NCBI RefSeq assembly: GCF_008801925.2
Contig: NZ_CP062804.1
Span: forward strand, 930,001-994,000
Direction: 5' to 3'
Source: Cupriavidus basilensis
GTDB lineage: Bacteria; Pseudomonadota; Gammaproteobacteria; Burkholderiales; Burkholderiaceae
Length of the DNA stretch: 64,000 bases
Shown here: piece by piece, positions 11,504 through 27,966 of the stretch
Position numbering within the stretch: position 1 is the stretch's first letter
How the letters are laid out: each line of letters opens with the position of its first letter
The notes under the pieces: generated by a model
Told to the model about the DNA's origin: nothing
The model's database searches: none
The model's input: only the letters and a program-made list of their open reading frames with translations
Translations under genes and position numbers: made by a program

Positions 11504-12835
11504 TTAGCTTCGCGTGGGGTAGAGGCCCTCAGTGCAGATCATGTACGTCAGGCCGTTGGGCGTGACGGACGCAAGATTCGGCAGCGCAAAGTTGCTTGTG
11601 CCGTTGCCGCCGAAGTTAGTCCCCAGCAGCGAGAACAGCGCCGCGTATTGTGCGATGGGGAGCAGCCGGCCATCGGCCGGCAGGCCTGCCCCGAACGTCG
11701 TGGCGGTTAGCCACACGCTGCCCATCGTGCATTCGGCGCCGCCGCTGCCGCCGCCTGCCGCGTTTCCGGTGTTTTGCCCCAGACCTGGGTTGATGGGGCC
11801 TGTGGCGCCGGTCGCGCCCGTCGCCCCCGTGGCCCCTGTGGCACCCGTTACGCCTTGCGCACCGGTGGCGCCGGTCGCACCCGTCGGGCCAGTGGCACCC
11901 GTGGTGCCTTGGGCGCCGGTGACTCCCGTCGGGCCTTGCATGCCGGTGGCGCCCGTGGCCCCGGTCGCGCCCGTCGGCCCCGTCACGCCTTGCGCACCGG
12001 TGGCGCCAGTAGCGCCAGTCGCGCCGGTAGCGCCCGTGGCGCCATTGCTCCCGTCGGCACCTTGCGGGCCCTGCGCGCCGGTTGCCCCCGTGGCCCCTGT
12101 CGCCCCGGTGGCCCCTATTGCGCCGGTAGCCCCGGTGGGACCGGCCGCACCCGTGGCGCCGGTCGCGCCCGTTGCCCCTGCCGGGCCCACATCGCCCCGG
12201 GCCAGCTCCTGCGACACAGTGACCAGCGTGGCGTTGTTGGCCTTCAGGCGCACGATCAGCGCTTCGAGCTTGTCGTCATACGCGTCGCCGGCTTGCGGCT
12301 GGAACACCTGGTTGAGCAGGTTCAGCGTGTCCACCGTCACGCCCAGATTGGCCAGGCGCTGCTTGGTCAAGGTCAGGGCAGTGGGCAGGCGGTTGCTTGC
12401 CGCGCCGGCCGAGGTGGCGGAGAACGTGTTGAAGAAGGCTTCGGTGTCCGGGTTTCCGGTGGCGCTGGCCACCACCAGCTCGGTGATCGGCGTGATGTTG
12501 GTCACGCCGGGGCCGAGGATCAGCGTGTGCAGCACGCCGCTCGGGCCGGTCACGCGCGCCGCGCACGGCAGCACCAGGCCGGCGGTGGTGACCGACCAGG
12601 CGCCGGTAGCCGAGGTGGTGACGGAGGCCGTGCCGGACACGCATTTCAGTTCCACGGTGGCATTGGCAATGGGCGCGCCGGTGGCGGCAACGCCGGAGAT
12701 CGAGGCTGCCGGCGCCACCGTGACCGGCGCGCTGCCAGATGATTGCGCGGTATCGCTGCCGCCGCCACCGCATGCGTTCAGCAGCGAGGCCGCGGCCATG
12801 GACAGATAGAGAGCCCGCAATTTTGTTTGCATCAT
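11504..12835 (-). CDS. Collagen-like lipoprotein with C-terminal phage tail-collar domain
   Basis: I start at ATG 12835 (12832 is an alternative); the frame upstream is unlike protein. Residues 1-22 form a lipoprotein signal ending LLNAC-GGGG. Next comes a beta-sandwich segment ([20 protein letters not shown]) of the same plan as in the lipoprotein at 5423, then an alpha-helical linker. After that come about 44 uninterrupted Gly-X-Y triplets, mostly GAT with GAQ, GPT and GVT. The last 70 residues ([40 protein letters not shown]) match the tail-collar domain of microcystin-dependent/phage fibre proteins. The modular order suggests a surface-anchored trimeric stalk with a globular tip. It could act in adhesion; no host partner is known. 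The convergent neighbour ends at 11443. Confidence 0.85.
11800..12190 (-). repeat. Collagen-type coding repeat (Gly-X-Y)
   Basis: The coding DNA is a 9-bp-period repeat, GGNGCNACN, coding Gly-Ala-Thr triplets with occasional GPT, GVT and GAQ. The high internal similarity makes copy-number change by slippage likely without frame loss. Confidence 0.85.
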
Positions 12836-13095
12836 GATTTCCCGTGATTTCCCAAAAAACAGTGATCCGCTTGCACACGTCTCGATCGATGCCGAGGTGC
12901 ACTTTTTATACGTATTGAAATGAAATGGAGTGGCAGCGCCCGCCGGGCGCAGCGGGGCGTATTTTATCGACGGTTGTCCGCGAGACGGCAAAGTCATTTG
13001 CGGTTTCGCCGGCAGATTTTGATGTCGTTGCCAAAACCCAACGAAGCCGGCCAGGCATCGGCAGGGCCGAGGCGCAATGGCCCGCTACAGCATGT

Positions 13096-14487
13096 CTACA
13101 GCATGGCCGAATGCAGATGGTGCGGATCGTCCAGCGTATCCGCCACGATCTGCAGCGATTCTTCCATCTCGTCGCGCTCGCCCGGCCCGCCCAGGCAGAT
13201 GCGGATGGCATCCGGGGGGTTGCCATCGGTGGCGAACGCCGCGCTCGACACCACGCCGATGCCGCGCGAGCGCAGGTGCAGCGCCAGCTCGGAGGGGCGC
13301 CAGCCGCTGTCCGGGGGAATCGGCAGCCAGAGATGGAAGCCTTCCGGGTCGGCGTCATATGGCCGCCCCGCCAGCACGTCGCGGGCCAGGAGCTGGCGGG
13401 CCACGCACTCGGCGCGGATGGCCTTGAGCATGTCGTCGGCCGTGCCGTCCTTGATCCACGACGTGGCCAGCAGCGTATTGAACGGGCTTGCCATGACGGT
13501 GGTGGCGCGCAGGGTGCCGGCCAGCCGCTGGGTCTGGCGCGCGGTGGGGCCGTGGATAAAGGCGATGCGCAATCCGGCGCCAAAGCATTTCGACAGGCCG
13601 GTGACGTAGTAGGTGAGTTCCGGCGCGAGCGTGGCCATGGCATCCGGCGTGCGCTGCGGCAGCATGCCGTAGGCATCGTCCTCGATGATCGGCACGCTGT
13701 AGCGCAGGGCGATATCCGCCAGGATTTCGCGCCGTCCCTGGGGCATGGTCCTGGTGCTGGGGTTCTGCAGCGTGGGATTGCAGTACAGCGCGCTTGGCTT
13801 TTGCGTCTTGCAGAGTGTTTCGAAGGCCGGGCCGAGGGGGCCTTCCTCATCGCTGGGCAGGGCCTGCAGCTGCACGCCGAGCTGCGTGGCAATGGCTTTG
13901 ATACCGGGATAGGCCAGCGTATCCAGGCAGATCGTTTGCCCGGGCCGGGCCAGCAGCGACACCAGCGCCACCAGGGCGCTGTGAATCCCCGGGCAGATCA
14001 GCACGGTATCCGCGCGGCAGGCGGGCACATAGCGTTTGAGCCAGTCCACCGCTACCGCGCGATCCGCCGGCGTGCCGCCGAAATCCTGGTAGCGCAGCAG
14101 GTCGTAGGGATCGGTCGTGCTCATCAGGCGCGCCGCCGACTCGCGCAGCCTGACCGTCAGCGCCGCCGGCTCGGGCGGGTTGTTCATGGTCATTTCGGCG
14201 CCCGTGCCCGCGCGCAGCGGCAGGGCCGGAGCGCGCCCGCGCACAAAGGTGCCGCTGCCGGCCTTGGCGTCGATCAGGCCGCGCTTGCGGGCTTCGGCGT
14301 AGGCACGGGCCACGGTGGTGTAGTTGAGCTGCAGCGCGTCGGCCAGGTCGCGCAGCGCCGGCAGGCGGTCGCGCGCTTGCAGGCGCCCGCTTGCCAGGTC
14401 TTCCTCGATCAGGTCGGGGATCATCAGGTAAGCGGGTTTGGTGCTCTCGCCGAGGCGTTTGAGCCAGTGGCTGGCAAGTCCGGGCAA
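13096..14487 (-). CDS. MocR-type GntR/aminotransferase transcriptional regulator
   Basis: The 463-residue protein starts with a GntR winged helix (LIEEDLASGRLQARDRLPAL, NYTTVARAYAEARKRGLI) and continues with a class I aminotransferase domain. The PLP-binding lysine sits in TGLSKCFGAGLRIAF, and IIEDDAYG holds the conserved aspartate. MocR proteins use PLP to sense amine or amino-acid metabolites. The start is TTG 14487, with AGGAG a few bases upstream on the minus strand. The gene diverges from the Nit1C operon (first start 14908), and the intergenic region carries repeated TTGATCG motifs, so it is the probable regulator of that operon. Confidence 0.9.
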   Translation of the reverse strand: MPGLASHWLKRLGESTKPAYLMIPDLIEEDLASGRLQARDRLPALRDLADALQLNYTTVARAYAEARKRGLIDAKAGSGTFVRGRAPALPLRAGTGAEMTMNNPPEPAALTVRLRESAARLMSTTDPYDLLRYQDFGGTPADRAVAVDWLKRYVPACRADTVLICPGIHSALVALVSLLARPGQTICLDTLAYPGIKAIATQLGVQLQALPSDEEGPLGPAFETLCKTQKPSALYCNPTLQNPSTRTMPQGRREILADIALRYSVPIIEDDAYGMLPQRTPDAMATLAPELTYYVTGLSKCFGAGLRIAFIHGPTARQTQRLAGTLRATTVMASPFNTLLATSWIKDGTADDMLKAIRAECVARQLLARDVLAGRPYDADPEGFHLWLPIPPDSGWRPSELALHLRSRGIGVVSSAAFATDGNPPDAIRICLGGPGERDEMEESLQIVADTLDDPHHLHSAML

Positions 14488-14565
14488 GGTGGGCTCCTGG
14501 TGTTCGCGTGTTCGCGGTTGTCGGATGCGGCTTTAGCTGGGTCAGCTGAGGCCTCAGGCTACCAC

Positions 14566-14598
14566 AATGATCGTTTTTTGCGCTTAAATTGATCGCAT
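14566..14598. promoter_or_regulatory. Candidate MocR operator, TGATCG direct repeats (site 1)
   Basis: TGATCG occurs at 14568-14573 and 14590-14595, 22 bp apart (two helical turns), with A/T tracts between. The second copy is part of the 11-mer ATTGATCGCAT (14588-14598), which recurs exactly at 14802-14812. MocR regulators typically bind direct repeats. Confidence 0.4.
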
Positions 14599-14769
14599 TT
14601 TTGTTTGCGCAATGATGGTGCGATATGGCGAGATTGCACCGCTTCCGGGCGTGTTTCCGAGCTGGCGCGGTCCACCACGGTGCATGGCGGCAAAAGGCCA
14701 GTAGCGGGCCGGTAGCGGCTAACGCACAAGCGTTTTCCGCACATTTCGCCATCCGGGAAATCGGCGGTG

Positions 14770-14812
14770 CGATCAATGAGAGATTCGCTGCTTGATCGGC
14801 CATTGATCGCAT
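14770..14812. promoter_or_regulatory. Candidate MocR operator, TTGATCG repeats (site 2)
   Basis: TTGATCG is present at 14792-14798 and 14803-14809 and inverted (CGATCAA) at 14770-14776. The last copy sits in the exact 11-mer ATTGATCGCAT also found at 14588. The block is about 95 bp upstream of the first Nit1C gene. Confidence 0.4.
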
Positions 14813-14907
14813 GATTGGGCGTGGCAGATGGCATGTCCCATGCTCAAGGTTTGGTGTCGGCCCAGCGCCGATCGATCGACAGATCCACCAACCCTATGGA
14901 GTGCAAC

Positions 14908-15390
14908 ATGCCCGCAGTGAACAAACCGGCCCACAAGAAAGGCGACTTCCTGGTCGACTATGAAGAGAAGGTATTCGAGGACGTCAAGGCAGAACCGGGC
15001 GAGAAGGCGCTGGTCACCTTTCACACCGTGGCCTTCGAAGGCTCGATCGGCTTCGTCAACCTGTTGCAGGCCACGCGCCTGCAACGCAAGGGCTTCGAGA
15101 CCTCCATCCTGCTGTACGGCCCGGGCGTGACGCTTGGCCTGCAGCGCGGTTTTCCCACGCTGGGCGACGAGGCCTTCGCCGGCCATCTCAACTTCAACAA
15201 GCAGATCACCAAGTTCATGGAAGAGGGCGGCAAGGTCTACGCCTGCCGCTTTGCGCTGCAAGCGCTGTATGGCCATGGCGAAGCGTCGCTGATCGAAGGC
15301 ATCCGCCCGATCAGCCCGCTCGATGTGCTGGACCTGAAGCTGATCCACCGCAAGGAGAACGCGCTGATCCTGGATACCTGGACGGTTTAA
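14908..15390 (+). CDS. MSMEG_0572 family nitrogen-starvation response protein (Nit1C)
   Basis: This 160-residue protein ([20 protein letters not shown]...) is the first gene of the Nit1C cluster. It has a DsrE/F-like alpha/beta pattern ([47 protein letters not shown]). The ATG at 14908 follows GGAG by 6 bases; an in-frame ATG further upstream is less likely. The family is found almost only beside the Nit1 nitrilase, a radical SAM protein, GNAT, AIR-synthase-like, MSMEG_0570 and a flavoprotein, all present here in that neighbourhood. Nit1C has been linked in other bacteria to growth on cyanide as nitrogen source. The biochemical role of this subunit is not known. Confidence 0.85.
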
Positions 15391-15400
15391 GGCTCCAACG

Positions 15401-15432
15401 CATTCACGCATTCACGCATTCATGCATTCACG
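15401..15432. repeat. 8-bp tandem repeat, 4 copies, before the nitrilase gene
   Basis: Units CATTCACG, CATTCACG, CATTCATG and CATTCACG lie between the stop at 15390 and the ribosome binding site of the nitrilase gene, inside the operon leader. Confidence 0.75.
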
Positions 15433-15457
15433 CTGAACAGAAAGGGCGGGCATCACC

Positions 15458-16474
15458 ATGTCACAGAAACGCATTGTGCGCGCGGCTGCGGTCCAGATCT
15501 CACCGGACCTGGAGCACGGCGAAGGCACGCTTGGCAAAGTCTGCGAGGCCATCGACCGCGCCGCACGGGAAGGCGTGCAACTGATCGTCTTTCCGGAAAC
15601 CTTCCTGCCGTACTACCCGTACTTCTCCTTTGTACGGCCACCCGTGCAATCCGGCAGCGACCATATGCGGCTGTACGAGCAGGCGGTGGTGGTGCCCGGC
15701 CCCGTCACCCATGCCGTGTCCGAGCGCGCGCGCCGGCACGCCATGGTGGTGGTGCTCGGTGTCAACGAGCGCGACCACGGCAGTCTTTACAACACGCAGC
15801 TCATCTTCGATACCGACGGCCGCCTGGTGCTCAAGCGCCGCAAGATCACGCCGACGTTCCATGAGCGGATGATCTGGGGCCAGGGCGACGCGGCCGGCCT
15901 GAAGGTGGCCGAAACCGCCATCGGCCGCGTGGGCGCGCTGGCTTGCTGGGAGCACTACAACCCGCTGGCCCGCTACGCGCTGATGACCCAGCACGAGGAA
16001 ATCCACTGCAGCCAGTTTCCCGGCTCGCTGGTGGGCCCCATCTTTGCCGATCAGATCGAAGTCACCATCCGCCATCACGCGCTGGAGTCCGGCTGCTTCG
16101 TGGTGAACGCCACGGGCTGGCTGACCGACGAGCAGATCGCCTCGGTGACCACCGACCCCGCCTTGCAAAAGGCGCTGCGCGGCGGCTGCAACACCGCCAT
16201 CGTGTCGCCGGAGGGCCAGCACCTGGCGCCGCCGCTGCGCGAGGGCGAGGGCATGGTGATCGCGGACCTGGATATGTCGCTCATCACCAAGCGCAAGCGC
16301 ATGATGGATTCGGTGGGGCATTACGCCCGGCCTGAATTGCTCAGCCTTGCCATCAACGACCGGCCGGCGGCGACCGCATCGCCCATGGCCAGCGCATTCT
16401 CCAACTACCACGGGAGCACCCACCATGAACTCCAGCGAGATGACGCCGGCCTCGAGCCGGTTGTCGGTAACTGA
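15458..16474 (+). CDS. Nitrilase of the Nit1 type (sll0784 family)
   Basis: The 338-residue product has the complete carbon-nitrogen hydrolase triad. Glu47 lies in [12 protein letters not shown], Lys129 in RRKITPT, and Cys163 in [14 protein letters not shown]. These residues hydrolyse nitriles to carboxylate and ammonia through a cysteine thioester. The ATG at 15458 is preceded by GAAAGGGCGG. It overlaps the radical SAM start by 50 bases, pointing to coupled translation. Nit1 nitrilases define the Nit1C cluster, which other work ties to cyanide assimilation. The natural substrate is not established; it may be a nitrile made by the other enzymes of the cluster. Confidence 0.92.
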
Positions 16475-17558
16475 GCTTCGGACCGAGCTGCAATCGGTCG
16501 GGCTGCGCCTGCTGGACCCGGCAGCGGGCGCCGCCAGCCGGCGCGGCGGCGCGGGCCCGTCCGACCACAAGGCGGTGACCGTGGATGGCGTGACCATCAT
16601 GGTGCCGGTGCATACCAATACCGCCTGGCATTCGCCGTACGTGGCGTCGGCGCCGGATGGCAAGGGCACCAGTGCGCTGCTGCGCGGCACCATCCCGATT
16701 GCGAACATCAGCTTTCCGAAGGCGCCGCGCTTCTATGCGCTGCAGACGATGGAGGGCGTGCCGTACTCGCACATCGCCACGCTGCACAGCGCGGACGTGC
16801 TGGCCACCACGGTGCTGCAAACCTGCATCCGCTACGAGAGCCGGCGCAAGACCTGCAAGTTCTGCGCGATCGGGCAATCGCTCGCGGCCGGTCGCACCAT
16901 CGCGCGCAAGACGCCGGAGCAACTGGCCGAAGTGGCGCGCGCCGCCGTGCTGCTGGACGGCGTCAAGCATATGGTGCTGACCACCGGCACGCCGCCCACG
17001 CCGGACCGCGGCGCCGCCATTCTTTGCGAAAGCGCCTTTGCCATCAAGGCTGCGGTGGATCTGCCCATCCAGGCGCAATGCGAGCCGCCGGACGACGACC
17101 GCTGGTTCGAGCGCATGAAAGCCTCCGGCATCGATACGCTGGGCATGCACCTGGAAGTGGTCACGCCCGCCCTGCGCGAGCGGATCATGCCGGGCAAGGC
17201 GGCGGTGCCGATCAGCCGCTATATGGAAGCCTTCAAGGCTGCGGTTGCCGTGTTCGGCCGGGGGCAGGTGAGCACCTATATCCTCGCCGGGCTCGGCGAT
17301 AGCGTTGAGACCATCCTGTCGATCTCGAAGGAACTGGTCGCGCTTGGCGTCTATCCCTTCGTGGTGCCCTTTGTGCCTATCACCGGCACGCCGCTGGAAG
17401 ACCATCCCGCGCCGCCGCCTGAATTCATGAAGGCCATCCTCAAGCCGCTGGGCGCGATGATCAGCGCGGCGGGCATGCGCTCGGCGGATATCAAGGCGGG
17501 CTGCGGCAAGTGCGGCGCCTGCTCCTCGCTGTCTTCGTATGAAGAGGTGGCGGCATGA
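16425..17558 (+). CDS. MSMEG_0568 family radical SAM protein
   Basis: I start at ATG 16425, preceded by CGGGAG, so the gene overlaps the nitrilase end. The 377-residue protein has an atypical radical SAM iron-sulfur motif, C134-x9-C144-x2-C147 ([15 protein letters not shown]), in place of the usual CxxxCxxC. It also has the strand pattern of a TIM-barrel SAM enzyme ([20 protein letters not shown]). A second cluster-like motif, C-x2-C-x2-C (C360, C363, C366; CGKCGAC), lies near the C-terminus and may bind another Fe-S centre. It belongs to the Nit1C cluster, and its stop overlaps the next start as ATGA. Confidence 0.88.
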
Positions 17559-18100
17559 ATGACGATCTCTGTGTGGAAGTGCCCGCGGCCACGACGTTTC
17601 GCATCCGCTGGGCCGGGGCGCAGTGGGAGGCGGACGAGGCCATGGCGCTGCGCCGGGCGGTGTTCTGCCATGAGCAGGGCATCTTTGTTGGCGACGACCG
17701 CGACGCGATCGACGACACCGCGCAGTTGCTGGTGGCGGTGAAGTGCGAGGCGGATGCGCCGCAGAAGGTGGTCGGCACCGTGCGCATCCACGAAACCGAG
17801 CCCGGTGTTTGGTTTGGCTCCCGGCTGGCGGTGCACGCCGCGTACCGCAGCCACGGCAAGATCGGCGCGACGCTGATCAAGCTGGCGGTGAGCAGCGCGA
17901 ACGGGCTGGGCTGCACCCGATTCCTCGCGCATGTGCAGAGCCAGAATGTGCCGCTGTTCCGCCGCTTGCATTGGGATGTGCTGGCCGAGGAAACGCTGCT
18001 TGGCCGCCCGCACCACCTGATGCAGGCGGACCTGGACTACTACCCAGCGTGCCTGACGCCGCGCATTGGCCTGTCGACGCTGGGCAGGAGCGGGACATGA
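17555..18100 (+). CDS. MSMEG_0567 family GNAT N-acetyltransferase
   Basis: The 181-residue protein has GNAT strands and the acetyl-CoA loop region (VVGTVRIHETEPGVWFGSRLAVHAAYRSHGKIGATLIKLAV). Here the R-x-x-G-x-G/A motif appears as RSHGKIGATL. It is the standard GNAT of Nit1C clusters and presumably acylates an amine intermediate. Its ATG overlaps the radical SAM stop (ATGA), and its own stop overlaps the next start in the same way, so it is translationally coupled on both sides. In some species this domain is fused to the AIR-synthase-like protein; here they are separate. Confidence 0.88.
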   Translation: MNDDLCVEVPAATTFRIRWAGAQWEADEAMALRRAVFCHEQGIFVGDDRDAIDDTAQLLVAVKCEADAPQKVVGTVRIHETEPGVWFGSRLAVHAAYRSHGKIGATLIKLAVSSANGLGCTRFLAHVQSQNVPLFRRLHWDVLAEETLLGRPHHLMQADLDYYPACLTPRIGLSTLGRSGT

Positions 18101-19107
18101 ATGTCGCGCACATCGTGGAAAGCCTGCGCGCCAGCCGCGGCTTTGGCCACAAGACCGATATCGCCGGCGTGCTGTCGTCGCTGGGCAATGCGCTGCCGGG
18201 CGGCATGCGCGATCTCGGCCAGGCGGTGGCGGTGGGCGACGATTGCGCCGCGATTGCCGACCATGACGGCTACCTGCTGTTTGCGATCGAAGGCATGGTC
18301 CGGGATTTCATCGCTGCCAGGCCGTGGTTCGCGGGCTATAGCGCGGTGATGGTCAACGTCAGCGATATCTATGCCATGGGCGGCCGTCCGCTGGCGGTGG
18401 TGGACGCTATCTGGAGCGACGGCGTGGCGCAGGCCGCCGAAGTGCTCAAGGGCATGGCGGCGGCCTCCGCGGCCTATGGCGTGCCCATCGTCGGCGGGCA
18501 TAGCAATGCCCGCAGCGATCAGGCCCAGCTTGCGGTGGCCATTGTCGGGCGGGCGCGGCGCCTGCTATCGAGCTTCGCGGCGCGCCCGGGCGACCGGTTG
18601 CTGATGGCCGTCGATTTGCGTGGCGCCTTTGCCGAGCCGTACCCGTACTGGAACGCCTCCACCGAAGCGCCGCCCGCGCGGCTGCGGGCCGATCTCGAAC
18701 TGCTGCCCGCGCTGGCCGAGGACGGCTTGTGCGCCGCGGCCAAGGACATCAGCATGGCCGGCACGCTGGGCACGGCGCTGATGCTGCTGGAGTGCTCCGG
18801 CGTGGGCGCGCGGATCGACCTGGGCCGCATCCCGGCCCCCGTGGGGGTGCCGATGGCGCGCTGGCTTACGGCATTCCCGAGCTACGGCTTTCTGCTGGCC
18901 GTGCGCGAGCAGGACGCGGAGCGTGTGAGCGAGCGTTTCAGGGCGCGGGACATTGCCTGCGCGGACATCGGCGTCATCGACGATTCGCGGCAGGTCTTGG
19001 TCAGCGGCGCCGGCGAAACCGCGCTGCTGTGGGATTTCGCGCGCGATGCATTCATCGTCCCGCAGGCTGGTTGCCCGGCGCGGGATGCCACCCCCATCGA
19101 TGCCTGA
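18097..19107 (+). CDS. AIR-synthase-like protein of the Nit1C cluster (sll0787 family)
   Basis: I start at ATG 18097, which overlaps the GNAT stop and follows AGGAG by 7 bases. The 336-residue protein has the PurM/HypE/SelD-like ATP-binding fold: GDDCAAI near residue 47, SAVMVNVSDIYAMGGRPLAVVDA, and VPIVGGHSNAR. The C-terminal AIRS_C domain follows from PGDRLLMAVDLRG to the end. Such proteins phosphorylate or dehydrate an amide or formamidine using ATP. In Nit1C the substrate is unknown. The C-terminus is somewhat divergent, but the ATP-site motifs are intact. Confidence 0.88.
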   Translation: MNVAHIVESLRASRGFGHKTDIAGVLSSLGNALPGGMRDLGQAVAVGDDCAAIADHDGYLLFAIEGMVRDFIAARPWFAGYSAVMVNVSDIYAMGGRPLAVVDAIWSDGVAQAAEVLKGMAAASAAYGVPIVGGHSNARSDQAQLAVAIVGRARRLLSSFAARPGDRLLMAVDLRGAFAEPYPYWNASTEAPPARLRADLELLPALAEDGLCAAAKDISMAGTLGTALMLLECSGVGARIDLGRIPAPVGVPMARWLTAFPSYGFLLAVREQDAERVSERFRARDIACADIGVIDDSRQVLVSGAGETALLWDFARDAFIVPQAGCPARDATPIDA

Positions 19108-19116
19108 GGAGAGGCC

Positions 19117-19404
19117 ATGCCAGTGACACATTTCCGGGTACGTTGGCCCGATCAGACCGAGGTCACCTGTTACTCCCCGTCCTCGGTGGTCACCGAGTTC
19201 TTTGTCCCGGGACAGGACTACGCGCTGGCCGAGTTCCTGGCGATCGCCAGGCAGGCGCTTGGCAGCGCCTCGGAGCGCGTCAGGGCGAAGTATGGCTATG
19301 CCTGCTCCTCTGCCATGGACCAGCTTGAACAGATCGAGACCACCGCCGCGCGTTTTTGCGCGCAGCCTGGCGCCACGGTGCGCGTGATCGGCTTTGGCCG
19401 GTAG
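19117..19404 (+). CDS. MSMEG_0570 family nitrogen-starvation response protein
   Basis: This 95-residue protein begins MPVTHFRVRWPDQTEVTCYSP and contains EFFVPGQDYALAEFLAIARQAL and two later cysteines (ACSSAMDQLEQIE, ARFCAQPG), as in MSMEG_0570 proteins. It lies 9 bases after the AIR-synthase-like stop with GAGGAG just upstream. No enzymatic motif is evident; it may be a small subunit or carrier. It is known only from Nit1C neighbourhoods, which supports the cluster call. Confidence 0.85.
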   Translation: MPVTHFRVRWPDQTEVTCYSPSSVVTEFFVPGQDYALAEFLAIARQALGSASERVRAKYGYACSSAMDQLEQIETTAARFCAQPGATVRVIGFGR

Positions 19405-19457
19405 CCCGGTTCCCGCAGGCCTTAGCGTATTTATCAGCATTCAAGGAAGGACCCAAC

Positions 19458-20741
19458 ATGTCTACCCCTCTCAACGAAACCCAGGCCACCACCTCCCCCA
19501 AGCACTACAGCGTCATCATCGTCGGTGGCGGCCAGGCCGGCCTGTCCATGAGCTACTACCTCAAGCAGGCCGGCATCGATCATCTCGTCATCGAGAAGCA
19601 CACCGTCACCCATACCTGGCGCAGCCAGCGCTGGGATGCCTTCTGCCTGGTCACGCCAAACTGGCAGTGTGCCTTGCCCGGCTATCCCTACCAGGGCAAC
19701 GACCCGCACGGTTTCATGAAGAAGGACGAGATCACCGCCTACCTCGATGGCTTTATCGGCATGGTGAATGCGCCGGTGCTGGAGCACACCGAGGTGGTGC
19801 GCGTGAAGCCGCTGGAGCAGGGCGGCTATCTGGTCTGCACCTCGCAGGGCGACTTCACCGCCGGTCAGGTGGTGGTGGCCTCCGGCGGCTATCACACGCC
19901 GATCGTGCCGCGCATGGCCGAGCGCCTGCCGGCGGGCATCCGGCAGATCCAGTCCTCCGAGTACCGCAGCCCGCAAGCTTTGCCGGAGGGCGGCGTGCTG
20001 GTGGTGGGTTCCGGCCAGTCCGGCGCGCAGATTGCCGAAGACCTGCACCTGGCGGGCCGCAAGGTGTTCCTGGCCGTGGGACAGGCGCCGCGCTGCGCGC
20101 GTTTCTACCGTGGCCGCGACGTGGTGGACTGGCTGGCCGACATGCAGTACTACGACATGCCGGTGCAGGAGCATCCGCTGCGCGAGGGCGTGCGCGACAA
20201 CACCAATCACTATGTGACCGGCCGCGATGGCGGGCGCGACATCGACCTGCGCAAGTTCGCCACCGAAGGCATGGAGCTGTTCGGCGCGCTGGAGGATTTC
20301 CATGACGGCAAGCTGCGCTTCACGCCGAACCTGAAGGCCAACCTTGACGATGCGGACGATACCTACAACCGCATCAACGCCAGCATCGACAAATTCATCG
20401 ACAAGCACGGCATCGCCGCGCCGCCCGCCAGCACCTATATGCCGGTATGGTCGCCGGGCGAGGAGCGTTGGGCACTGGACCTGGCGCAGGCGGGCATTGG
20501 CGCCATCGTCTGGTGCATCGGCTTTCGCCCGGATTTCAGTTGGCTGGAGGCGCCGGTCTTCAACGGGCGCGGCTATCCCGGCCACGTGCGCGGCGTGACG
20601 GCGCAGGACGGCCTGTATTTCCTGGGCCTGCCGTGGCTGCACACCTGGGGCTCCGGGCGTTTCTCCGGCATTGCGCGCGATGCCGAATATCTGGCGGCCA
20701 TCGTCAGCGAAAAGATTGGCGCGCAAGCCCTGGCAGCCTGA
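19458..20741 (+). CDS. MSMEG_0569 family flavin-dependent oxidoreductase
   Basis: The ATG at 19458 follows AAGGAAGG. The 427-residue protein has an N-terminal FAD motif (VIIVGGGQAGLSMSYYLKQ) and a mid-protein NAD(P)H motif (VLVVGSGQSGAQIAEDLH), the pattern of flavoprotein monooxygenases. It resembles flavin-containing or Baeyer-Villiger-type monooxygenases and is the last gene of the classical Nit1C set. It may oxidise the metabolite later handled by the nitrilase. The next gene begins one base after its stop, so transcription clearly continues into the LnmK-like gene. Confidence 0.9.
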   Translation: MSTPLNETQATTSPKHYSVIIVGGGQAGLSMSYYLKQAGIDHLVIEKHTVTHTWRSQRWDAFCLVTPNWQCALPGYPYQGNDPHGFMKKDEITAYLDGFIGMVNAPVLEHTEVVRVKPLEQGGYLVCTSQGDFTAGQVVVASGGYHTPIVPRMAERLPAGIRQIQSSEYRSPQALPEGGVLVVGSGQSGAQIAEDLHLAGRKVFLAVGQAPRCARFYRGRDVVDWLADMQYYDMPVQEHPLREGVRDNTNHYVTGRDGGRDIDLRKFATEGMELFGALEDFHDGKLRFTPNLKANLDDADDTYNRINASIDKFIDKHGIAAPPASTYMPVWSPGEERWALDLAQAGIGAIVWCIGFRPDFSWLEAPVFNGRGYPGHVRGVTAQDGLYFLGLPWLHTWGSGRFSGIARDAEYLAAIVSEKIGAQALAA

Positions 20742-20742
20742 C

Positions 20743-21606
20743 ATGTTCCGCGCGAGCACAAGCTATGTCGCCGGCATGCCGAACCTGTCCTATACCGGCC
20801 TGTCGGAGAACTGGCTGCTCAAGGCTTGCGGCGACCTGCACTGGCAAGGGCTGGCAGCGCTGTCCGGGCAGGCGTTGCCGGAGTTCCGGGACGCGCAGGG
20901 CAACAAGGCCTATGCCGCGTTCACCGCGATCCGGCTGCGGGAGGCATCGCTGGAAGGGCTTGGCGAAAACGATGGCTTCTCGGTAAACACGCAGCTGATG
21001 CGGGTGGCCGGCGCGCGCCACTTCAGCACGCATGCACTGAGGCGCGATGGCGATGGTGATGGCGAAGGTGATAGTGACGGGCCAGGCGCCAGACGGGCCG
21101 AGGTATCGATGGTGTCCACCTTTATCCGCCGTGAGCGCGAGCGCGACAATCGTTCGGTGGTCAGGGCCGCTTTCAACCTGCCGGCGGACGGGCCGCCACC
21201 CGCGGCGGCGGCGGAGATGGGCGCGCTGGCCAAGCGCTTCCGGGCGGGCGACTGGTCCTGCCATCTTGGCCTGGAGCGGGCGCGGCACGTCGGCAGCCAC
21301 ATGGCCGAGTACCTGCCTTGCCCCTATGCCGACTTCAACGGCGCGGACCTGCTCTACTTCGCCAACTTCCAGGCCATCGTCGATCGTGCCGAATGGCAAT
21401 GGCAGCGTTTTGACGAGCCGCCGGTAATTGCCGGGCGCGACCTGTTTTTCCACGGCAACGTCAACCTTGGCGAAGCGCTGGAGCTGTCGTTCTCCGCGGT
21501 GGAGTTCGGCCAGGACGGGCTGGCCCATTGGTGCGAGGTGCGGCGCGGCAGCGACGGCGAGAAGATTGCCGATGTGGTGACGCGCAAGCGTTGGAGAGTG
21601 CGATGA
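20743..21606 (+). CDS. LnmK-like biosynthesis protein (Pnap_2097 family)
   Basis: The 287-residue protein has a double hot-dog layout. The N-terminal MFRASTSYVAGMPNLSYTGLSENWLLKACGDLHW and the later CPYADFNGADLLYFANFQAIVDRAEW and DLFFHGNVNLGEALELSF match the LnmK-like family (Pnap_2097 type). LnmK converts methylmalonyl-CoA to propionyl-ACP as an acyltransferase/decarboxylase in leinamycin synthesis. The call is made more interesting by the methylmalonyl-CoA mutase encoded next. A run of Asp-Gly dipeptides around residues 103-113 is coded by a hexanucleotide repeat and looks like an insertion. It starts one base after the flavoprotein stop and overlaps the mutase start by four bases. No acyl carrier protein gene is in the window. 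Confidence 0.75.
   Translation: MFRASTSYVAGMPNLSYTGLSENWLLKACGDLHWQGLAALSGQALPEFRDAQGNKAYAAFTAIRLREASLEGLGENDGFSVNTQLMRVAGARHFSTHALRRDGDGDGEGDSDGPGARRAEVSMVSTFIRRERERDNRSVVRAAFNLPADGPPPAAAAEMGALAKRFRAGDWSCHLGLERARHVGSHMAEYLPCPYADFNGADLLYFANFQAIVDRAEWQWQRFDEPPVIAGRDLFFHGNVNLGEALELSFSAVEFGQDGLAHWCEVRRGSDGEKIADVVTRKRWRVR
21046..21078. repeat. Imperfect 6-bp coding repeat (Asp-Gly)
   Basis: Units of GATGGC, GATGGT and close variants code an acidic Asp-Gly/Glu-Gly/Asp-Ser stretch inside the LnmK-like protein. The block is in frame and would vary by two residues per unit. Confidence 0.65.
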
Positions 21607-23714
21607 GCGCAGATACGCATGGCGGACTGGCGCGCAAGCCCGTCTACACGGCCGCCGACCTGGACGGGCTGCGGCATCTGGGCAGCCTGCCTGGCGAGGC
21701 GCCGTTCGTGCGCGGGCCGCATCGCTCCATGTACGCGGGCAAGCCGTGGACCATCCGGCAGTACGCGGGCTTTGCCGACGCCACCGCCTCCAACCTGGCA
21801 TTCCGGCAGGCGCTGGCGCAGGGGGCGCAGGGTTTGTCGGTCGCGTTCGATCTGCCGACCCATCGTGGCTATGACTCCGATCACCCGCTGGCGCAGGCGG
21901 ATGTTGGCATGGCTGGCGTGGCGATCGATTCCGTCGAGGACATGAAGCGCCTGTTCGATGGCATCGCGCTGGACCGCGTCTCCGTCTCCATGACCATGAG
22001 CGGCGCCGTATTGCCGGTACTGGCCGCGTTCCTGGTGAGCGCCGAAGAAGCTGGCATCCCGCTCGATCGGCTCAGCGGCACGATCCAGAACGACATCCTC
22101 AAGGAGTACATGGTCCGCAACACGTGGATCTTCGCACCCGGGCCGTCGATGCGGATCTGCGCGGATGTGGTGGCTTACCTGTCGCGGCATGTGCCGCGGT
22201 TCAACGGCATGTCGATCTCCGGCTACCACTTCCAGGAAGCCGGGGCGGACCCGGTGCTGGAACTGGCGCTGACGCTGGCCAACGGGCAGGAATACGTCAG
22301 GCAGATGGCCGCGCGCGGGCTGGATGTGGATGATTTTTGCGCCCGCCTGAGCTTCTTCTTTGGCGTGGGCAAGGATTTCTTCACCGAGATCGCTAAGCTG
22401 CGCGCCGCGCGCCTGCTGTGGTGTGAGATCGTCCGCGAGCTGGGTGCCACCACGGATCGGGCCACCATGCTGCGCACGCACTGCCAGACCTCGGGATGGT
22501 CGCTGGCGGCCTCGCAGCCGGACAACAACATCGTGCGGACCACGGTGGAAGCCATGGCTGCGGTGTTCGGCGGCACGCAGTCGCTGCACACCAATGCTTA
22601 TGATGAAGCGCTGGCATTGCCCAGCGCCGCATCCGCCCGGCTCGCGCGGGACACCCAACTGATCTTGCAGCACGAGATGGGCCTGTGCGACGTGGCCGAT
22701 CCATGGGCGGGCTCCTACATGATGGAAGCGCTCACGGCGCAAATGGCGGACAAGGTGCGCGCGCTGATGGCGGAGATTGCCGCTGCCGGTGGCGTGCTGG
22801 CCGCGATCGACTCAGGCTGGGTCCATGAGCGGATTCATCGCGCGGCCGTGGCCACGCAGGCCGATATCGACGAAGGGCGGCGCGTGATTGTCGGCGTCAA
22901 CCGCTACCAGGCGGGGGCCGATGAGGCGCCCGCCTGCCTGGAGATCGATGGGCGGCAGGTCCGGGCGCAGCAGGCCGAGCGGCTGTCCCGCCTGAAGGCA
23001 AGCCGCGATGGCGCGGCCGTGGCACAGGCGCTGCGCGCGCTAACGGCCGCCGCGCGCGGCGGCGAGCAAAACCTGCTGCCGCTGACCATGAACGCCATCC
23101 GCTGCCGCGCGACCCTTGGCGAGTGCACGCAGGCGCTGGAGCTGGTGTGGCCGCGCCATGCGATGGCGCCTCGCTACGCGCGCCAAGCCTACGGCGAGGC
23201 CGTGCACGACAGCCCCGCCTGGGACGCGGCCCGCGCGCAGGTCCGTGCGCTGGCCGCGCGCCTGGGCAGAGCGCCGCGCATCCTCATTGCCAAGCTGGGG
23301 CAGGACGGGCATGACCGCGGGGCCAAGGCCGTGGCCGCGGCGTTCTCCGATGCCGGGTTCGCGGTCACGCTGGGGCCGCTGTTCCAGTCGCCGCAGGACG
23401 CCGTGGCGATGGCCCTGCACGGGCAGGTCGACGCGGTGGGCGCATCGTCCCTGGCGGGCGCGCACCTGGCGTTGCTGCCTTGCCTGATCGATGGACTGCG
23501 CGATGGCCTGCGCGATGGCCGGCCAGGCGTGCTGGTGTTCGCGGGCGGCGTGATTCCCGCCAGCCACGCCCGGCGCCTGCGCGCCCAGGGCGTGAGCGCG
23601 ATCTTCGGGCCGGGCGCCACCATGGCGGCCATCGTCATGGGGATCGCGGGCGCGTTGCTGCGGCATGCGGGCAAGGCGAGCCTGCCCGATGCCCAGCTGG
23701 AAAGTGCCGGCTAG
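21603..23714 (+). CDS. Methylmalonyl-CoA mutase, large subunit with B12-binding domain
   Basis: The 703-residue protein has the mutase barrel (residues 1-520) with [56 protein letters not shown] and [11 protein letters not shown]. It ends with the cobalamin domain bearing the lower-ligand motif DGHDRG near residue 568. Tyr54 (RQYAG) and Arg172 (MVRNT) occupy the positions that separate methylmalonyl-CoA mutases from isobutyryl-CoA mutases, so methylmalonyl/succinyl-CoA interconversion is likely. The ATG overlaps the stop of the LnmK-like gene (ATGA), placing it firmly at the end of this operon. No meaB/ArgK chaperone or small subunit is nearby. Confidence 0.9.
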
Positions 23715-24115
23715 CGCTCGCGCCGCGCTTGGGCCGCGCTCGGGTCGGGGCCGTTGTCGCTGCTTTGCCAGCCGGCTCGCCTTGCCCGCGAACCCCTTTC
23801 ATTTCGTCGGGATTCATTGCCCATGGCCAGCGCCTGGGCTATCGTTCGTCTTGGCTCGAAGCGGCTGCGGGAACGCATGCGGCTGGGCTACCCCCCCGCA
23901 AAAGGAAAACGGAGAGACCATATCGTCCTCCCGCTGTACTGCGAGCTACTGCAAACAACAGCGCAGTACAGCGCACAACTGAAAAGATCAACGCATGTCA
24001 CGCCCTGGCAGCCACTGGCGCTGGCGTTTATTCCGGCTCGGTGATGGGTGCCTCCAGGTCCAGGTTGCCCCGCACAGGGCGATCCTTGACGTAGTTTGTT
24101 TGGAGAGTGTCTTCC
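23715..24115. other. Intergenic region between mutase and fumarase genes
   Basis: This 400-bp region ends the Nit1C-plus operon and precedes fumC. It holds a perfect 10-bp inverted repeat (23934-23971) and a possible promoter-like TTGACG at about 24086. No gene is evident. Confidence 0.45.
23934..23971. promoter_or_regulatory. 10-bp inverted repeat upstream of fumC
   Basis: CTGTACTGCG (23934-23943) and CGCAGTACAG (23962-23971) form a perfect inverted repeat with an 18-base centre. It could be an operator for fumC or a hairpin at the end of the mutase transcript; no T-run follows. Confidence 0.4.
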
Positions 24116-25519
24116 ATGCCCGCATTCCGTTCCGAAACCGATTCGATGGGCGCCATCGATGTGCCCGCAGATCGCTACTGGGGCGCGCAGACGCAGCGTT
24201 CCACCATCAATTTCCCGATCGGGGTGAGCCGCTTCCGCTGGCAGCGGCCGGTGATCCGCGCGCTGGGCATCCTCAAGCGCGCGGCGGCCGAGGCCAATGC
24301 GGAGCTTGGCGAATTGCCACCCGACATCGGCCGGCTGATCGTGCAGGCGGCCGACGAGGTCATCTCCGGCAAGCTCGATGAGCACTTCCCGCTGGTGGTG
24401 TTCCAGACCGGGTCCGGCACGCAATCGAACATGAACGCCAACGAGGTGATCTCCAACCGGGCCATCGAGATTGCCGGCGGGGAGCTCGGCAGCAAGAAGC
24501 CGGTGCATTCGAACGATCACGTGAACCGCGGCCAAAGCTCCAACGACACGTTCCCCACCGCCATGCATATCGCCGTGGTCGAGCAGATCCACACCAAGCT
24601 GCTGCCGGCGGTAGGCGCCTTGCGCGATACCCTGGCGGCCAAGGCGCAGGCATACCAGGACATCGTCAAGACGGGCCGCACCCACCTGCAGGACGCCACG
24701 CCCATCACCCTTGGCCAGGAAATCAGCGCCTGGGTGGCGCAGATCGATTTCGGGCTGCATGGCGTCAAGCTGGCGGAGCCGGGCTTGCTGGAACTGGCCA
24801 TCGGCGGCACGGCGGTGGGCACCGGGCTGAACGCGCATCCGCAGTTTGGCGCGCGCGCGGCGGCCTATATCGCCGCGCTGACCGGCCATCCGTTTGTCGA
24901 TGCGCCCAACAAGTTCTTCGCGCTCTCCGCGCACGACGCACTGGTGCAAACCTCCGCCGCGCTGCGCACGCTGTCCGGCGGCCTGATGAAGATGGCCAAC
25001 GACGTGCGCTGGCTGGCCTCGGGCCCGCGCTGCGGCATTGGCGAGCTCAACATCCCCGAGAACGAGCCGGGCTCGTCGATCATGCCCGGCAAGGTCAACC
25101 CGACCCAGTGCGAGGCCATGACCATGGTGTGCGCGCAGGTGTTCGGCAACGATGCCACGGTGGCCTTCGCCGGCAGCCAGGGCAATTTCCAGCTCAACGT
25201 GTACAAGCCGGTGATGGTCCACAACGTGCTGGAAAGCATCGAGCTGATCGCCGATGCCTGCCTGGCCTTCAACGACCATTGCGCGCTCGGCATCGAGCCG
25301 AACCTGCCGAAGATTGCCGAGAACCTCGACAAGAACCTGATGCTGGTGACGGCGCTGAACCGCCATATCGGCTACGACAAGGCGGCCGCCATTGCCAAGA
25401 AGGCGCACAAGGAAGGGCTGACGCTGAAGGCCGCCGCGCTGGCGCTGGGCTATCTCACCGAGGACGAATACGCACGCTGGATCGTGCCCATCGAGATGAC
25501 GCATCCGAACAAGGATTGA
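24116..25519 (+). CDS. fumC: Class II fumarate hydratase
   Basis: The 467-residue length is exactly the class II norm. The fumarase/aspartase signature [17 protein letters not shown] is near residue 320. [18 protein letters not shown] and the active-site segment [16 protein letters not shown] are present. It converts fumarate to malate without an iron-sulfur centre. I start at ATG 24116, 9 bases after GGAGA; the nearby GTG 24107 leaves no room for that site. FumC is often induced under iron limitation or oxidative stress, which fits a TonB-dependent siderophore receptor as its convergent neighbour. Confidence 0.95.
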
Positions 25520-25612: not shown

Positions 25613-27832
25613 TTACAGATGGAAGTTCAGCGTCATCACCGCTGAACGGCCCGGCGCCCACGTTGCGTAGATCGGGTATGCGGCGGAGTAGTACTTCTTG
25701 TCGAAGAGGTTCTGCACGTTCAGTTGCACATCGACGGTCTTGGAGACGCGATACGTTGCCACCGCATCGAAACGCGCGTAGCCCGGCGTCCATTTGCGCG
25801 ACGTTGCCGAGACCGAGGCGTAGGTCAGGCTGGAGATCGTGGCGCCGCCGCCGATCGATAGCTTGGGCAGCACGTCGTAGTAGGTCCACAGCGTGACGTT
25901 GTGCTTGGGCACCATCACCATCGGCAGGCCGGATGCCGAGGCATTGGCGGCGCCGGCATCGATCGTGATGGCATCCAGGTAGGAGTAGCCGCCGAACACG
26001 CGCCACTTGCTGGTGATATTGCCGGCCACGCCCAGTTCCGCGCCGCGCACGCGTTGCTTGCCCGCGTTGACGATGCCGCCCAGGCCATCGCTGACGCGCG
26101 CATTGGTCTTGTCGGTCTGGAACAGCGCCGAGGTCAGTGACAGGCGGCGGTCCAGCGTGTCCCACTTGGCGCCCACTTCGATGTTGCGGCTGCGCTCGGG
26201 CGACAGGTCCTGGTTGGTTTTGGTGATCTGGTCTGTGCCGCCACCCAGGCCGCTGTTGGCGCCCGGCGGATTGGCCGACGTACCGTAGGAGGCATACAGA
26301 CTGACCGTGTCGACCGGCTTGAACACCAGGCCAAGCTGGTAGCTGAACAGGTTGGCGGTGTTCTTCAGGTCCGGCGTGCCGGCCTGCACAGCGGTGACGT
26401 CGAAGCGGTCGAAGCGCGTGCCGGCGTTGAACAGCCAGCGATCGCTCAGCTTCACGCTGTCGAACAGGTAGGCGGACGAGACATTGGTGCGGGTGCTGGT
26501 GGGCGCGCCGGGGAAGCTCTTGTCGCCGTTGAGCACGGTGCTGCCGGTCCACGGGGCGTTGGCATTCCACGCGCCGATCGCGGTGCAGTTGTAGGCGATC
26601 GTGCAGGGACCGCCCGTGCGGATATTGTTGCCCGCGCTGTCGCTCACCAGGTAGCCCTCGTACAGGCTGCGCTCCCAGCTCAATTCCACACCGGCCGTGA
26701 GCGTGTGCTGCATGCCAAGCAACGTGGCCTTGCCGGACAGCTCGGTCTGGTTGGAGACGCTGTTGGTGGCGTATTTCCCGCTCTTGGCTTGCAACTGGAG
26801 GAGGTTCGCGCTGGCGTTCAGGAACTGCGGGTTGGTGGCGATGTAGTCCAGCGTGGAGCGGCCAAACATGGTGGTGTTGCGCACCTTCCAGTTGTCGTCC
26901 ACGCGGTGCTCGATGCGGATCTCGCCGGTGTCCGTCTGCCCGCGCCGGTAGTCGCGGTTGTTCAGGCCGTAGAACTGCGAGCGCTGGATGCTGGTTCCCG
27001 CCCCGGGCGTGCCGCCGCTCGCGCGGAACGGCACGCTGAAGTCCGGCATGTCGTAGGTGTTGACGTGGTAGTAGCTCAGCGACACCGTGGTCGGCGTGTT
27101 CAGCCCGAACGCGACCGATGGCGCCACGCCCCAGCGCTTGCTGTAGACATCGTTGCGCCCGGCCTGGTTGGCGTCGTGGCCCATCACGTTCAGGCGCACC
27201 GCGGTCTCGTCGTTGATGCGGCGGTTGACGTCGAGCGTGGCGCGCTTGTAGGCCTCGGTGCCCAGCCCCAGGCTGGCATTGGTGAAGTCATCCGCCTTGG
27301 GCATCTTGGTGACGATGTCGATGCTGCCGCCCACCGCGCCACGTCCCGCATAAACCGAATCCGGGCCCTTGATGACGCTGATCTGCTCCACCGCGAAGGT
27401 CTCGCGGTTCTGCACGCCGGAGTCGCGCATGCCGTCGACAAAGATCGAGTTGCGCGACTCGAAGCCGCGAATCACCGGACGATCGGCGGAGGGGTTCGCC
27501 GCGGCGTCGCCGCCCAGGAAGGTAATGCCCGGCACGGTCTTCAACGCATCGGCGAAGGTCGTCGCATTGGTCTGCTTGAGCAGTTCCTCCGGGATCACCG
27601 TGACCGAGCGCGGCGTATCCAGCAACGGCGCGACGAACTTGTACGAGGGCAGGCGCTTGGCCTGGAGCGGCGAATCGGCGGTGACAACGGCGGTGGGCAA
27701 GGTGGCTTCCTTCGCGTTGCCGGCGTCGGCGGCGGATTGCGCGAAGGCCGGCGTGGCGGCGAGGAAACCTGTGCAGTAAAGAGCACCAGCGGACGCGAGC
27801 AAACGCGCGCGCGTCTTCAGGGGAGCAGTCAT
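25613..27832 (-). CDS. TonB-dependent siderophore receptor
   Basis: The 739-residue protein has a signal peptide (MTAPLKTRARLLASAGALYC, ending TPAFA-QSA). It continues with the plug domain (RSVTVIPEELLKQTNATTFADALKTVPGI, GGDAAANPSADRPVIRGFESRNSIFVDGMRDSG, VIKGPDSVYAGRGAVGGSIDIVTK) and a 22-strand barrel ending LFDKKYYSAAYPIYATWAPGRSAVMTLNFHL with terminal aromatic/hydrophobic residues. The closest general resemblance is to catecholate receptors of the Fiu type. No sigma/anti-sigma pair or N-terminal signalling domain is visible. The ATG at 27832 is preferred; the frame extends upstream without signal-peptide character. A possible Fur site lies upstream. Confidence 0.92.
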   Translation of the reverse strand: MTAPLKTRARLLASAGALYCTGFLAATPAFAQSAADAGNAKEATLPTAVVTADSPLQAKRLPSYKFVAPLLDTPRSVTVIPEELLKQTNATTFADALKTVPGITFLGGDAAANPSADRPVIRGFESRNSIFVDGMRDSGVQNRETFAVEQISVIKGPDSVYAGRGAVGGSIDIVTKMPKADDFTNASLGLGTEAYKRATLDVNRRINDETAVRLNVMGHDANQAGRNDVYSKRWGVAPSVAFGLNTPTTVSLSYYHVNTYDMPDFSVPFRASGGTPGAGTSIQRSQFYGLNNRDYRRGQTDTGEIRIEHRVDDNWKVRNTTMFGRSTLDYIATNPQFLNASANLLQLQAKSGKYATNSVSNQTELSGKATLLGMQHTLTAGVELSWERSLYEGYLVSDSAGNNIRTGGPCTIAYNCTAIGAWNANAPWTGSTVLNGDKSFPGAPTSTRTNVSSAYLFDSVKLSDRWLFNAGTRFDRFDVTAVQAGTPDLKNTANLFSYQLGLVFKPVDTVSLYASYGTSANPPGANSGLGGGTDQITKTNQDLSPERSRNIEVGAKWDTLDRRLSLTSALFQTDKTNARVSDGLGGIVNAGKQRVRGAELGVAGNITSKWRVFGGYSYLDAITIDAGAANASASGLPMVMVPKHNVTLWTYYDVLPKLSIGGGATISSLTYASVSATSRKWTPGYARFDAVATYRVSKTVDVQLNVQNLFDKKYYSAAYPIYATWAPGRSAVMTLNFHL

Positions 27833-27944
27833 GATTTCAGTGTTGCTAGGGGAGTCGATGCGCGCACGGGGCGCGGAAGATACCTGGCGTGCAAGGAACG
27901 AAAGGCGAGGCCAGGAATAAAAACCAATGCTTGGGTTGAGAACG

Positions 27945-27966
27945 AGAATGCGAGTGATTCGCAATT
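27945..27966. promoter_or_regulatory. Possible Fur box upstream of the siderophore receptor
   Basis: The stretch AGAATGCGAGTGATTCGCAA has an inverted TGCGA-N5-TCGCA core and loosely follows the GATAATGATAATCATTATC consensus. It lies about 115 bp upstream of the receptor start, where iron repression would be expected. Confidence 0.4.

Follow-up and report, generated by a model that had tools for sequence, protein, structure and literature searches.

This report concerns a Nit1C gene cluster and the two genes that follow it in a 64,000-nucleotide stretch of Cupriavidus basilensis DNA, here called the window (NCBI RefSeq assembly GCF_008801925.2, contig NZ_CP062804.1, positions 930,001 to 994,000 of the forward strand; host genome, 8.9 Mb). 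The two genes encode an LnmK-like protein and a methylmalonyl-CoA mutase, and they lie directly downstream of the seven Nit1C genes, as listed here with the scores of the corresponding family models.

13096..14487, minus strand: MocR-type regulator (Pfam PF00392, GntR, and PF00155, aminotransferase-like), divergent from the operon
14908..15390, plus strand: MSMEG_0572/Sll0783 family protein, NitB (TIGR04044, 288.8 bits, cut-off 109.85)
15458..16474, plus strand: Nit6803-type nitrilase, NitC (TIGR04048, 588.8 bits, cut-off 502.6)
16425..17558, plus strand, start codon not fixed: MSMEG_0568 radical SAM protein, NitD (TIGR04043, 597.7 bits, cut-off 303.7)
17555..18100, plus strand: MSMEG_0567/Sll0786 GNAT acyltransferase, NitE (TIGR04045, 246.1 bits, cut-off 68.45)
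18097..19107, plus strand: sll0787-type AIR synthase-like protein, NitF (TIGR04049, 489.2 bits, cut-off 321.3)
19117..19404, plus strand: MSMEG_0570 family small protein, NitG (TIGR04042, 126.2 bits, cut-off 79.85)
19458..20741, plus strand: MSMEG_0569 flavin-dependent oxidoreductase, NitH (TIGR04046, 694.6 bits, cut-off 498.35)
20743..21606, plus strand: LnmK-like (Pnap_2097 family) double hot-dog protein, predicted methylmalonyl-CoA decarboxylase/acyltransferase
21603..23714, plus strand: methylmalonyl-CoA mutase, one chain with catalytic and B12-binding domains (NF006944; PF01642 and PF02310)

A sequence-only reading of the window had described the Nit1C set as intact and unidirectional and had placed the extended cluster between 14908 and 23714. 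Both statements proved correct, each of the seven proteins being encoded by an open frame on the plus strand and scoring above its NCBI curated cut-off. The tight coupling that it had reported for the last three genes was also recovered: a single base separates the flavoprotein stop codon TGA (20739-20741) from the LnmK-like ATG (20743-20745), and the LnmK-like stop codon TGA (21604-21606) overlaps the mutase ATG (21603-21605) in an ATGA. The spacing across 14908-20741 is operon-like, with short gaps or overlaps throughout on a single strand, and the junctions between the window genes are those of an operon. The seven genes, their common direction and the terminal flavoprotein agree with what is reported for proteobacteria in the 2005 description of Nit1C (nitBCDEFGH); that description gives a glycosyltransferase variant and no other neighbour conserved between species (Podar et al., PMC1199592), whereas here an LnmK-like gene and a mutase gene follow and, as shown below, recur widely. 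The window cluster also differs from the glycosyltransferase variant, since it contains no MSMEG_0565-type glycosyltransferase gene; in 33 of 80 related loci this gene is present as an eighth gene, between the AIR-like and MSMEG_0570 genes.

The LnmK-like protein scored 333.1 bits against TIGR04099 (cut-off 125) and 301.3 bits against TIGR04098 (cut-off 100), and 21.7 bits against Pfam LnmK_N_HDF, which is under the gathering score of 26.5. Both its double hot-dog fold and the two NCBI models are consistent with LnmK, the bifunctional methylmalonyl-CoA acyltransferase/decarboxylase of leinamycin biosynthesis (PDB 4hzn, 6x7l), from which it differs in being only ~20% identical, in belonging to a subfamily of its own (Pnap_2097, TIGR04099), and in standing in a cluster where no polyketide synthase or carrier protein was seen. 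In the alignment, Y57 of the window protein corresponds to chain position Tyr 62 of LnmK (6x7l), which we take to be the acyl-accepting residue, and it is invariant in 18 sequences. An invariant asparagine, N199 in DFNGADLLYF, aligns with LnmK DVNGVGLLYF and may correspond to the catalytic loop asparagine that PMC8666670 describes for LnmK. As a separate observation, the LnmK-like gene has no phage match, and no relative was present among viral contigs by the patterns used, so a phage link was rejected.

The mutase matched the equivalog model NF006944 over its whole length (1025 bits, cut-off 876), among PDB entries the human mitochondrial enzyme matches it best, and its Tyr/Arg/His/Gln positions and B12 Asp/His positions are conserved. 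In an alignment of 70 rows, the substrate-pocket residues Y54 and R172 are tyrosine and arginine in all 65 rows that have a letter at each position. A Tyr/Arg pocket is presumably of the methylmalonyl-CoA mutase type and Phe/Gln of the isobutyryl-CoA mutase type, and isobutyryl-CoA mutase-type specificity was ruled out on these residues. D568 and H570 of the B12 site are conserved in 63 of the 63 rows with a letter there, within DxHxxG, which we take to be the B12-binding motif. The window mutase thus shares both the pocket Tyr/Arg and the DxHxxG with single-chain methylmalonyl-CoA mutases. The sequence-only reading held that both added genes would act on methylmalonyl-CoA, and the mutase specificity residues, the LnmK fold and the swap between mutases described below lend support to this prediction.

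To follow the two genes beyond the window, 249 genomes of the host's family were searched. TIGR04099 was found in 27 of them (over the cut-off in 24) and the Nit1C marker TIGR04044 in 50; all 27 genomes with an LnmK-like gene are among these 50, and none of the 199 marker-less genomes has one. The two genes lie within 8 kb of each other on one contig in 26 of the 27, and on different contigs in the remaining genome (G037). For comparison, Jones and Kunz name 270 bacteria with Nit1C. When 369 genomes were sampled from the class, TIGR04099 exceeded its cut-off in the host's own genome only and TIGR04044 in four genomes including it, so Nit1C also exists without LnmK. A draw of 289 genomes from the class of another LnmK-bearing genome (that of locus L127) gave three over the TIGR04099 cut-off, one of them new (G748); as its LnmK relative is free of Nit1C genes over the 19 kb inspected, this genome is not included in the mutase count.

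A scan of species genomes with the LnmK-like protein alignment returned 132 relatives, and the counts of loci given here refer to the best 80 of these. They contain the Nit1C nitrilase in 73 cases, the flavoprotein in 79, the mutase in 63 and a MocR relative in 63, several of the gene misses being contig ends. Where LnmK-like gene and mutase are both present, they are on the same strand (63 of 63), and they are at most 300 bp apart by best match in 62. By the names in the records, the hosts are Cupriavidus, Ralstonia, Paraburkholderia, Caballeronia, Burkholderia, Pandoraea, Pseudomonas, Methylophilus, Methylobacillus, Marinobacterium, Oceanobacter, Achromobacter, Derxia, Rhodoferax, Methyloversatilis, Azospirillum and others, spanning beta-, gamma- and alphaproteobacteria. 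Among the closest loci are that of Cupriavidus basilensis OR16 (L080), with 87-98% best-segment identity for the Nit1C proteins, 91% for LnmK and 74% for a short piece of the mutase before the contig end, and that of Burkholderiaceae bacterium 16 (L056), with 86-99% for the Nit1C proteins and 85% for LnmK. In a plasmid collection, 59 records matched the LnmK-like protein; of six inspected by tblastn, five contain Nit1C with the LnmK-like gene, one of these five also the mutase, and the sixth, from Roseobacter litoralis, has an LnmK relative and no Nit1C.

These data bear on the explanation that the LnmK-like and mutase genes stand behind Nit1C by local accident. Although both genes are absent from 23 of the 50 family-sample genomes with Nit1C, all 27 LnmK genomes carry Nit1C, 73 of the 80 LnmK loci keep the nitrilase, and the pairing extends over three classes and several gene orders, leaving a chance neighbourhood a practically negligible probability. 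A local accident was accordingly rejected, on the confinement of LnmK to Nit1C genomes, the adjacency of the mutase in 23 of 24 genomes (below) and the pairing across the 80 loci. The sequence-only reading had allowed that the genes might rarely be adjacent to Nit1C elsewhere; the adjacency is common, and the two genes form a conserved extension of the cluster.

The presence of the mutase goes with that of the LnmK-like gene rather than with Nit1C alone. In the family sample, it exceeded the cut-off in 24 of the 27 LnmK genomes compared to none of the 23 Nit1C genomes without LnmK, and in 34 of the 199 other genomes; 29 of these 34 come from one genus (g12). It is directly beside the LnmK-like gene in 23 of the 24, the 24th (G037) being split over contigs. 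The three LnmK genomes without a mutase are G069, a C. campinensis contig with LnmK intact, and G032 and G234, each with an LnmK fragment only. Two genomes with a mutase but no Nit1C (G205 and G104) have a mutase that groups with the housekeeping type, and a supported branch of the mutase tree sets all 17 housekeeping-type rows apart on one side. Compared to these 17, the cluster mutase is 53-60% identical, cluster-bound, and found without a stand-alone MeaB gene; a protein search with the mutase returned many relatives, as matches given without gene context.

When whole genomes were compared (62 with the cluster mutase and 16 without it, L056 and L078 being left out of the 80 loci), another mutase was found elsewhere in 15 of the 16 genomes that lack the cluster mutase: 13 are full-length and of the housekeeping type (1259-1298 bits), and two are partial or frame-broken (L117, L133). 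Conversely, none of the 62 genomes with a cluster mutase has a second mutase over the cut-off, nearly all of the extra matches being IcmF-type (~275-340 bits); a second partial match in G967 and G970 (551 and 379 bits) is below the cut-off and was not counted. By coordinates, the single high-scoring mutase lies inside the locus in 61 of the 62, and in the remaining one (L080) the gene is cut by the contig end, with the rest at the start of another contig. In one of the two loci left out (L056), the contig ends after LnmK and a cluster-like mutase is on another contig. This swap between cluster mutase and other genomic mutase gave a Fisher p of 3.7e-15 with kinship ignored. Since the cluster mutase is present only where no other genomic mutase was found, it seems to be the LnmK-like enzyme that belongs to the pathway proper, with the mutase as its supplier; the mutase appears dispensable in genomes that encode another one.

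The sequence-only reading had called for the co-occurrence to be weighed against phylogeny. On trees of the Nit1C proteins, LnmK presence changes 10-11 times. A mutase follows LnmK in 6.9 of 7 supported independent pairs when the flavoprotein tree is used (p 0.016); the radical SAM tree gives 4.9 of 5 supported pairs (p 0.06), and the nitrilase tree 2.9 of 3 (p 0.25). These pair trees exclude L056, L064, L068, L078, L079 and L112, and L191 and L192, which have LnmK fragments, were scored as LnmK-minus.

The mutase could instead serve the catabolism of propionate, methylmalonate or odd-chain substrates, working towards succinyl-CoA and merely riding along with Nit1C. It is the only match over the methylmalonyl-CoA mutase cut-off in the host's own genome, as this explanation would have it. 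However, the mutase tracks the LnmK-like gene and not Nit1C alone (24/27 against 0/23), shares its strand in all 63 loci and moves along with it in rearranged loci. Furthermore, 14 of the 16 genomes that lack the cluster mutase encode a stand-alone MeaB, and none of 32 cluster-mutase genomes, the host's own included, does so; an epimerase, needed for the carboxylase-derived (2S) product, was found at E 1e-10 in none of the same 32. The epimerase test is weak, because the model misses most genomes without a cluster mutase too. Taken together, we consider a catabolic role improbable.

Rearranged loci show that LnmK and the mutase move jointly (L064, L068, L079, L096, L107). In Ralstonia sp. NFACC01 (L064), Nit1C is preceded by MocR, a second GNAT, LnmK and mutase, in this order. 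In Caballeronia sp. dw_19 (L068:7399-12933), a second small operon consists of further MSMEG_0572, GNAT and flavoprotein genes followed by LnmK and mutase, and in a Paraburkholderia bin (L079:8591-12933), of a further flavoprotein gene, LnmK and mutase; both genomes have a complete Nit1C without LnmK or mutase elsewhere (L235, L236). Nine Pseudomonas loci matched a regulator other than MocR, which by its motif we presume to be of the sigma54 type, and in six Pseudomonas loci (L096, L107-L110, L115) the regulator is followed by LnmK and mutase, divergent from the seven nit genes. Since the gene order varies between loci, a frozen inherited order is disfavoured. The coupling of LnmK and mutase to Nit1C is real, conserved and present in several arrangements.

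We propose that the operon is a Nit1C cluster joined to an acyl-supply module, a reading to which we assign a probability of about 0.5. In this proposal, the B12-dependent mutase would convert succinyl-CoA to (2R)-methylmalonyl-CoA, the LnmK-like enzyme would decarboxylate the latter through an acyl-tyrosine to a propionyl donor bound to CoA or a carrier, and a cluster acyltransferase, most likely the GNAT NitE, would put the acyl group onto an intermediate that the flavoprotein, radical SAM, AIR-like and nitrilase enzymes of the pathway would also work on. The acyl-donor role of the module is likely; from sequence we infer which reactions occur and in which direction, that the GNAT is the acceptor, and with this an acylated product of the operon. 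(2R)-Methylmalonyl-CoA is the mutase's own epimer. By the title of the 2020 paper of Lohman and Shen, LnmK reportedly specifies this same epimer, so an epimerase would be unneeded.

NitE is the one acyltransferase of known fold in the window cluster, and the top solved-structure matches of its family profile are the GNATs 1q2y and SACOL1063 (5jq4). Three observations hint at the GNAT as acceptor. Displaced LnmK-mutase pairs carry extra copies of GNAT (L064), of GNAT and flavoprotein (L068) or of the flavoprotein (L079). A Roseobacter litoralis plasmid protein (L203:8338-9795) is a fusion of a hexapeptide acyltransferase domain (~49-191) to an LnmK domain (229-479). Finally, according to PMC8666670, E. 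coli MadA (YiiD) is a GNAT fused to a hot-dog decarboxylase, with 5JQ4 as the nearest structure to its GNAT domain; 5JQ4 is also among the top matches of the NitE profile, and both systems pair a SACOL1063-kind GNAT with a hot-dog thioester decarboxylase. MadA differs in being a single fusion with another hot-dog Pfam family, acting on malonyl-ACP in fatty-acid initiation, which makes this a likeness of working and not of membership. As a side observation, the Roseobacter litoralis fusion gene sits in a polysaccharide gene cluster.

Several observations weigh against the acyl-supply reading. The module is missing from 23 of the 50 family-sample Nit1C genomes, which makes it optional, and distant LnmK relatives exist outside Nit1C (L112, L203, L243). 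In Cupriavidus campinensis (L059, the genome G619), LnmK (L059:9968-10816) is intact within Nit1C and no mutase match beyond IcmF was found. On the LnmK tree, mutase presence changes just four times, so there are few independent events behind the swap, and the two supported independent pairs gave p 1. The absence of stand-alone MeaB from all 32 cluster-mutase genomes, which have at most an IcmF-embedded domain, would mean that the cluster mutase may have no protecting chaperone or may rely on the IcmF G-domain, and the epimerase model exceeded its cut-off in just 3 of the 16 genomes without a cluster mutase. LnmK is named a CoA:ACP acyltransferase in the PDB, and the 30 neighbour groups that recur most often (frames of at least 70 aa), which by eye are regulators, transport genes, flank genes or shadow frames, included no recognisable carrier-protein gene. 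Lastly, no clear LnmK-bearing clade was seen on the GNAT and flavoprotein trees, which sort by LnmK hardly better than the nitrilase tree (12, 12 and 14 changes), so no specialisation of GNAT or flavoprotein is seen. Such points touch the possibility that the LnmK-like protein uses methylmalonyl-CoA but hydrolyses the thioester, or loads a carrier protein elsewhere for fatty-acid or polyketide chemistry, yielding no propionyl for the GNAT; the extra GNAT copies beside displaced pairs and the MadA parallel point towards the GNAT, and we regard this possibility as rather unlikely, while still a serious one.

Two side observations belong to these exceptions. The C. campinensis locus is the one clear exception to the LnmK-mutase pairing. 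The LnmK-like gene of Polaromonas glacialis (L112:3313-4278) lies in a genome with no match to the Nit1C nitrilase model, and recombinase-like reading frames were seen by eye upstream of it.

Cobalamin binds cyanide, and the mutase or its B12 could relate to cyanide itself, as a ligand or as a reserve enzyme under cyanide, without any acyl supply. In PMC11049912, nit1C is tied to cyanide assimilation, Nit1C being needed for growth on cyanide in P. pseudoalcaligenes CECT5344 and P. fluorescens NCIMB 11764. However, a direct cyanide role would leave both the LnmK-like gene and the absence of the cluster mutase where another mutase exists unexplained, and we hold it to be very improbable. LnmK-like genes are found in strains that use cyanide. 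In Pseudomonas monteilii BCN3, which can grow with cyanide as its only nitrogen source, the seven Nit1C genes are D0894_12380 to D0894_12410 (PMC6318355), and the LnmK-like protein (P0120) is D0894_12415, the next locus tag past Nit1C, since BCN3 tags run in steps of five. The cyanotroph NCIMB 11764 encodes the LnmK-like protein B723_21895 (P0090).

The sequence-only reading had set an acylated metabolite pathway against simple nitrile hydrolysis. As stated, this contrast is unsupported, given that the nitrilase is kept in 73 of 80 LnmK loci and that the LnmK tag follows the BCN3 Nit1C genes; on the same grounds, the module adds to Nit1C. The two added genes hint that a small molecule is built by the cluster, beyond the splitting of nitriles. 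More specifically, and with considerable doubt, the extended Nit1C might be a pathway that makes an N-acylated (propionylated) molecule, perhaps a cyanide-capturing nitrile for the nitrilase, with the acyl group derived from succinyl-CoA via the B12 mutase and the LnmK-type decarboxylase.

The open-access literature contained no description that we found of Nit1C with a methylmalonyl-CoA module, subscription papers (e.g. Jones et al. 2018) being outside the scope of the search. Among the matches listed, none since 2018 has Nit1C and methylmalonyl together, and Nit1C is absent from the titles and abstract starts of LnmK papers; for methylmalonyl-CoA with cyanide and nitrilase, none is on Nit1C by title or abstract start. 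In the same literature, no paper on Pnap_2097 and no match for the NCIMB 11764 locus tags were found. According to PMC11049912, no gene is linked to nit1C across Pseudomonas, and the main text of that paper mentions neither LnmK nor methylmalonyl nor mutase. In NCBI annotation, the label 'biosynthetic process' is given to the nitrilase, radical SAM, AIR-like and glycosyltransferase proteins; some records extend it to the Pnap_2097 protein, indicating that the model builders already viewed the cluster as biosynthetic. The extended Nit1C is thus a new variant, although the NCBI model builders may have known of the Pnap_2097 association.

The roles of the Nit1C genes have been mostly open since 2005, and the methylmalonyl-CoA module gives a chemical handle on them. 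It points to a likely class of metabolite (propionyl or methylmalonyl derived) with an isotope-labelable precursor, and it offers two enzymes with simple assays; the BCN3 locus tags bring the question into a strain with a known cyanide phenotype. If the extended Nit1C does make an N-acylated molecule in the way suggested above, this would be a non-polyketide use of LnmK chemistry within nitrogen scavenging.

Across the window, no RNA family reached the gathering score. In 14400-24150, a sigma-70 promoter scan gave no sites against 1.1 expected, and a terminator scan gave six predictions against 4.9 expected. A 497-aa reading frame at 11504-12997 (minus strand) has long collagen-like GATGAT repeats, and the N-terminal part of a frame at 10541-11443 (plus strand) consists of a repeated short unit (MVAMVAMVAMVAMVAMA). 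Downstream of the operon, the frame at 24107-25519 (plus strand) begins ~390 bp past the mutase stop and, by its signatures, is presumably a class II fumarase; that at 25613-27964 (minus strand) we take, likewise by its signatures, to be a TonB-dependent receptor.

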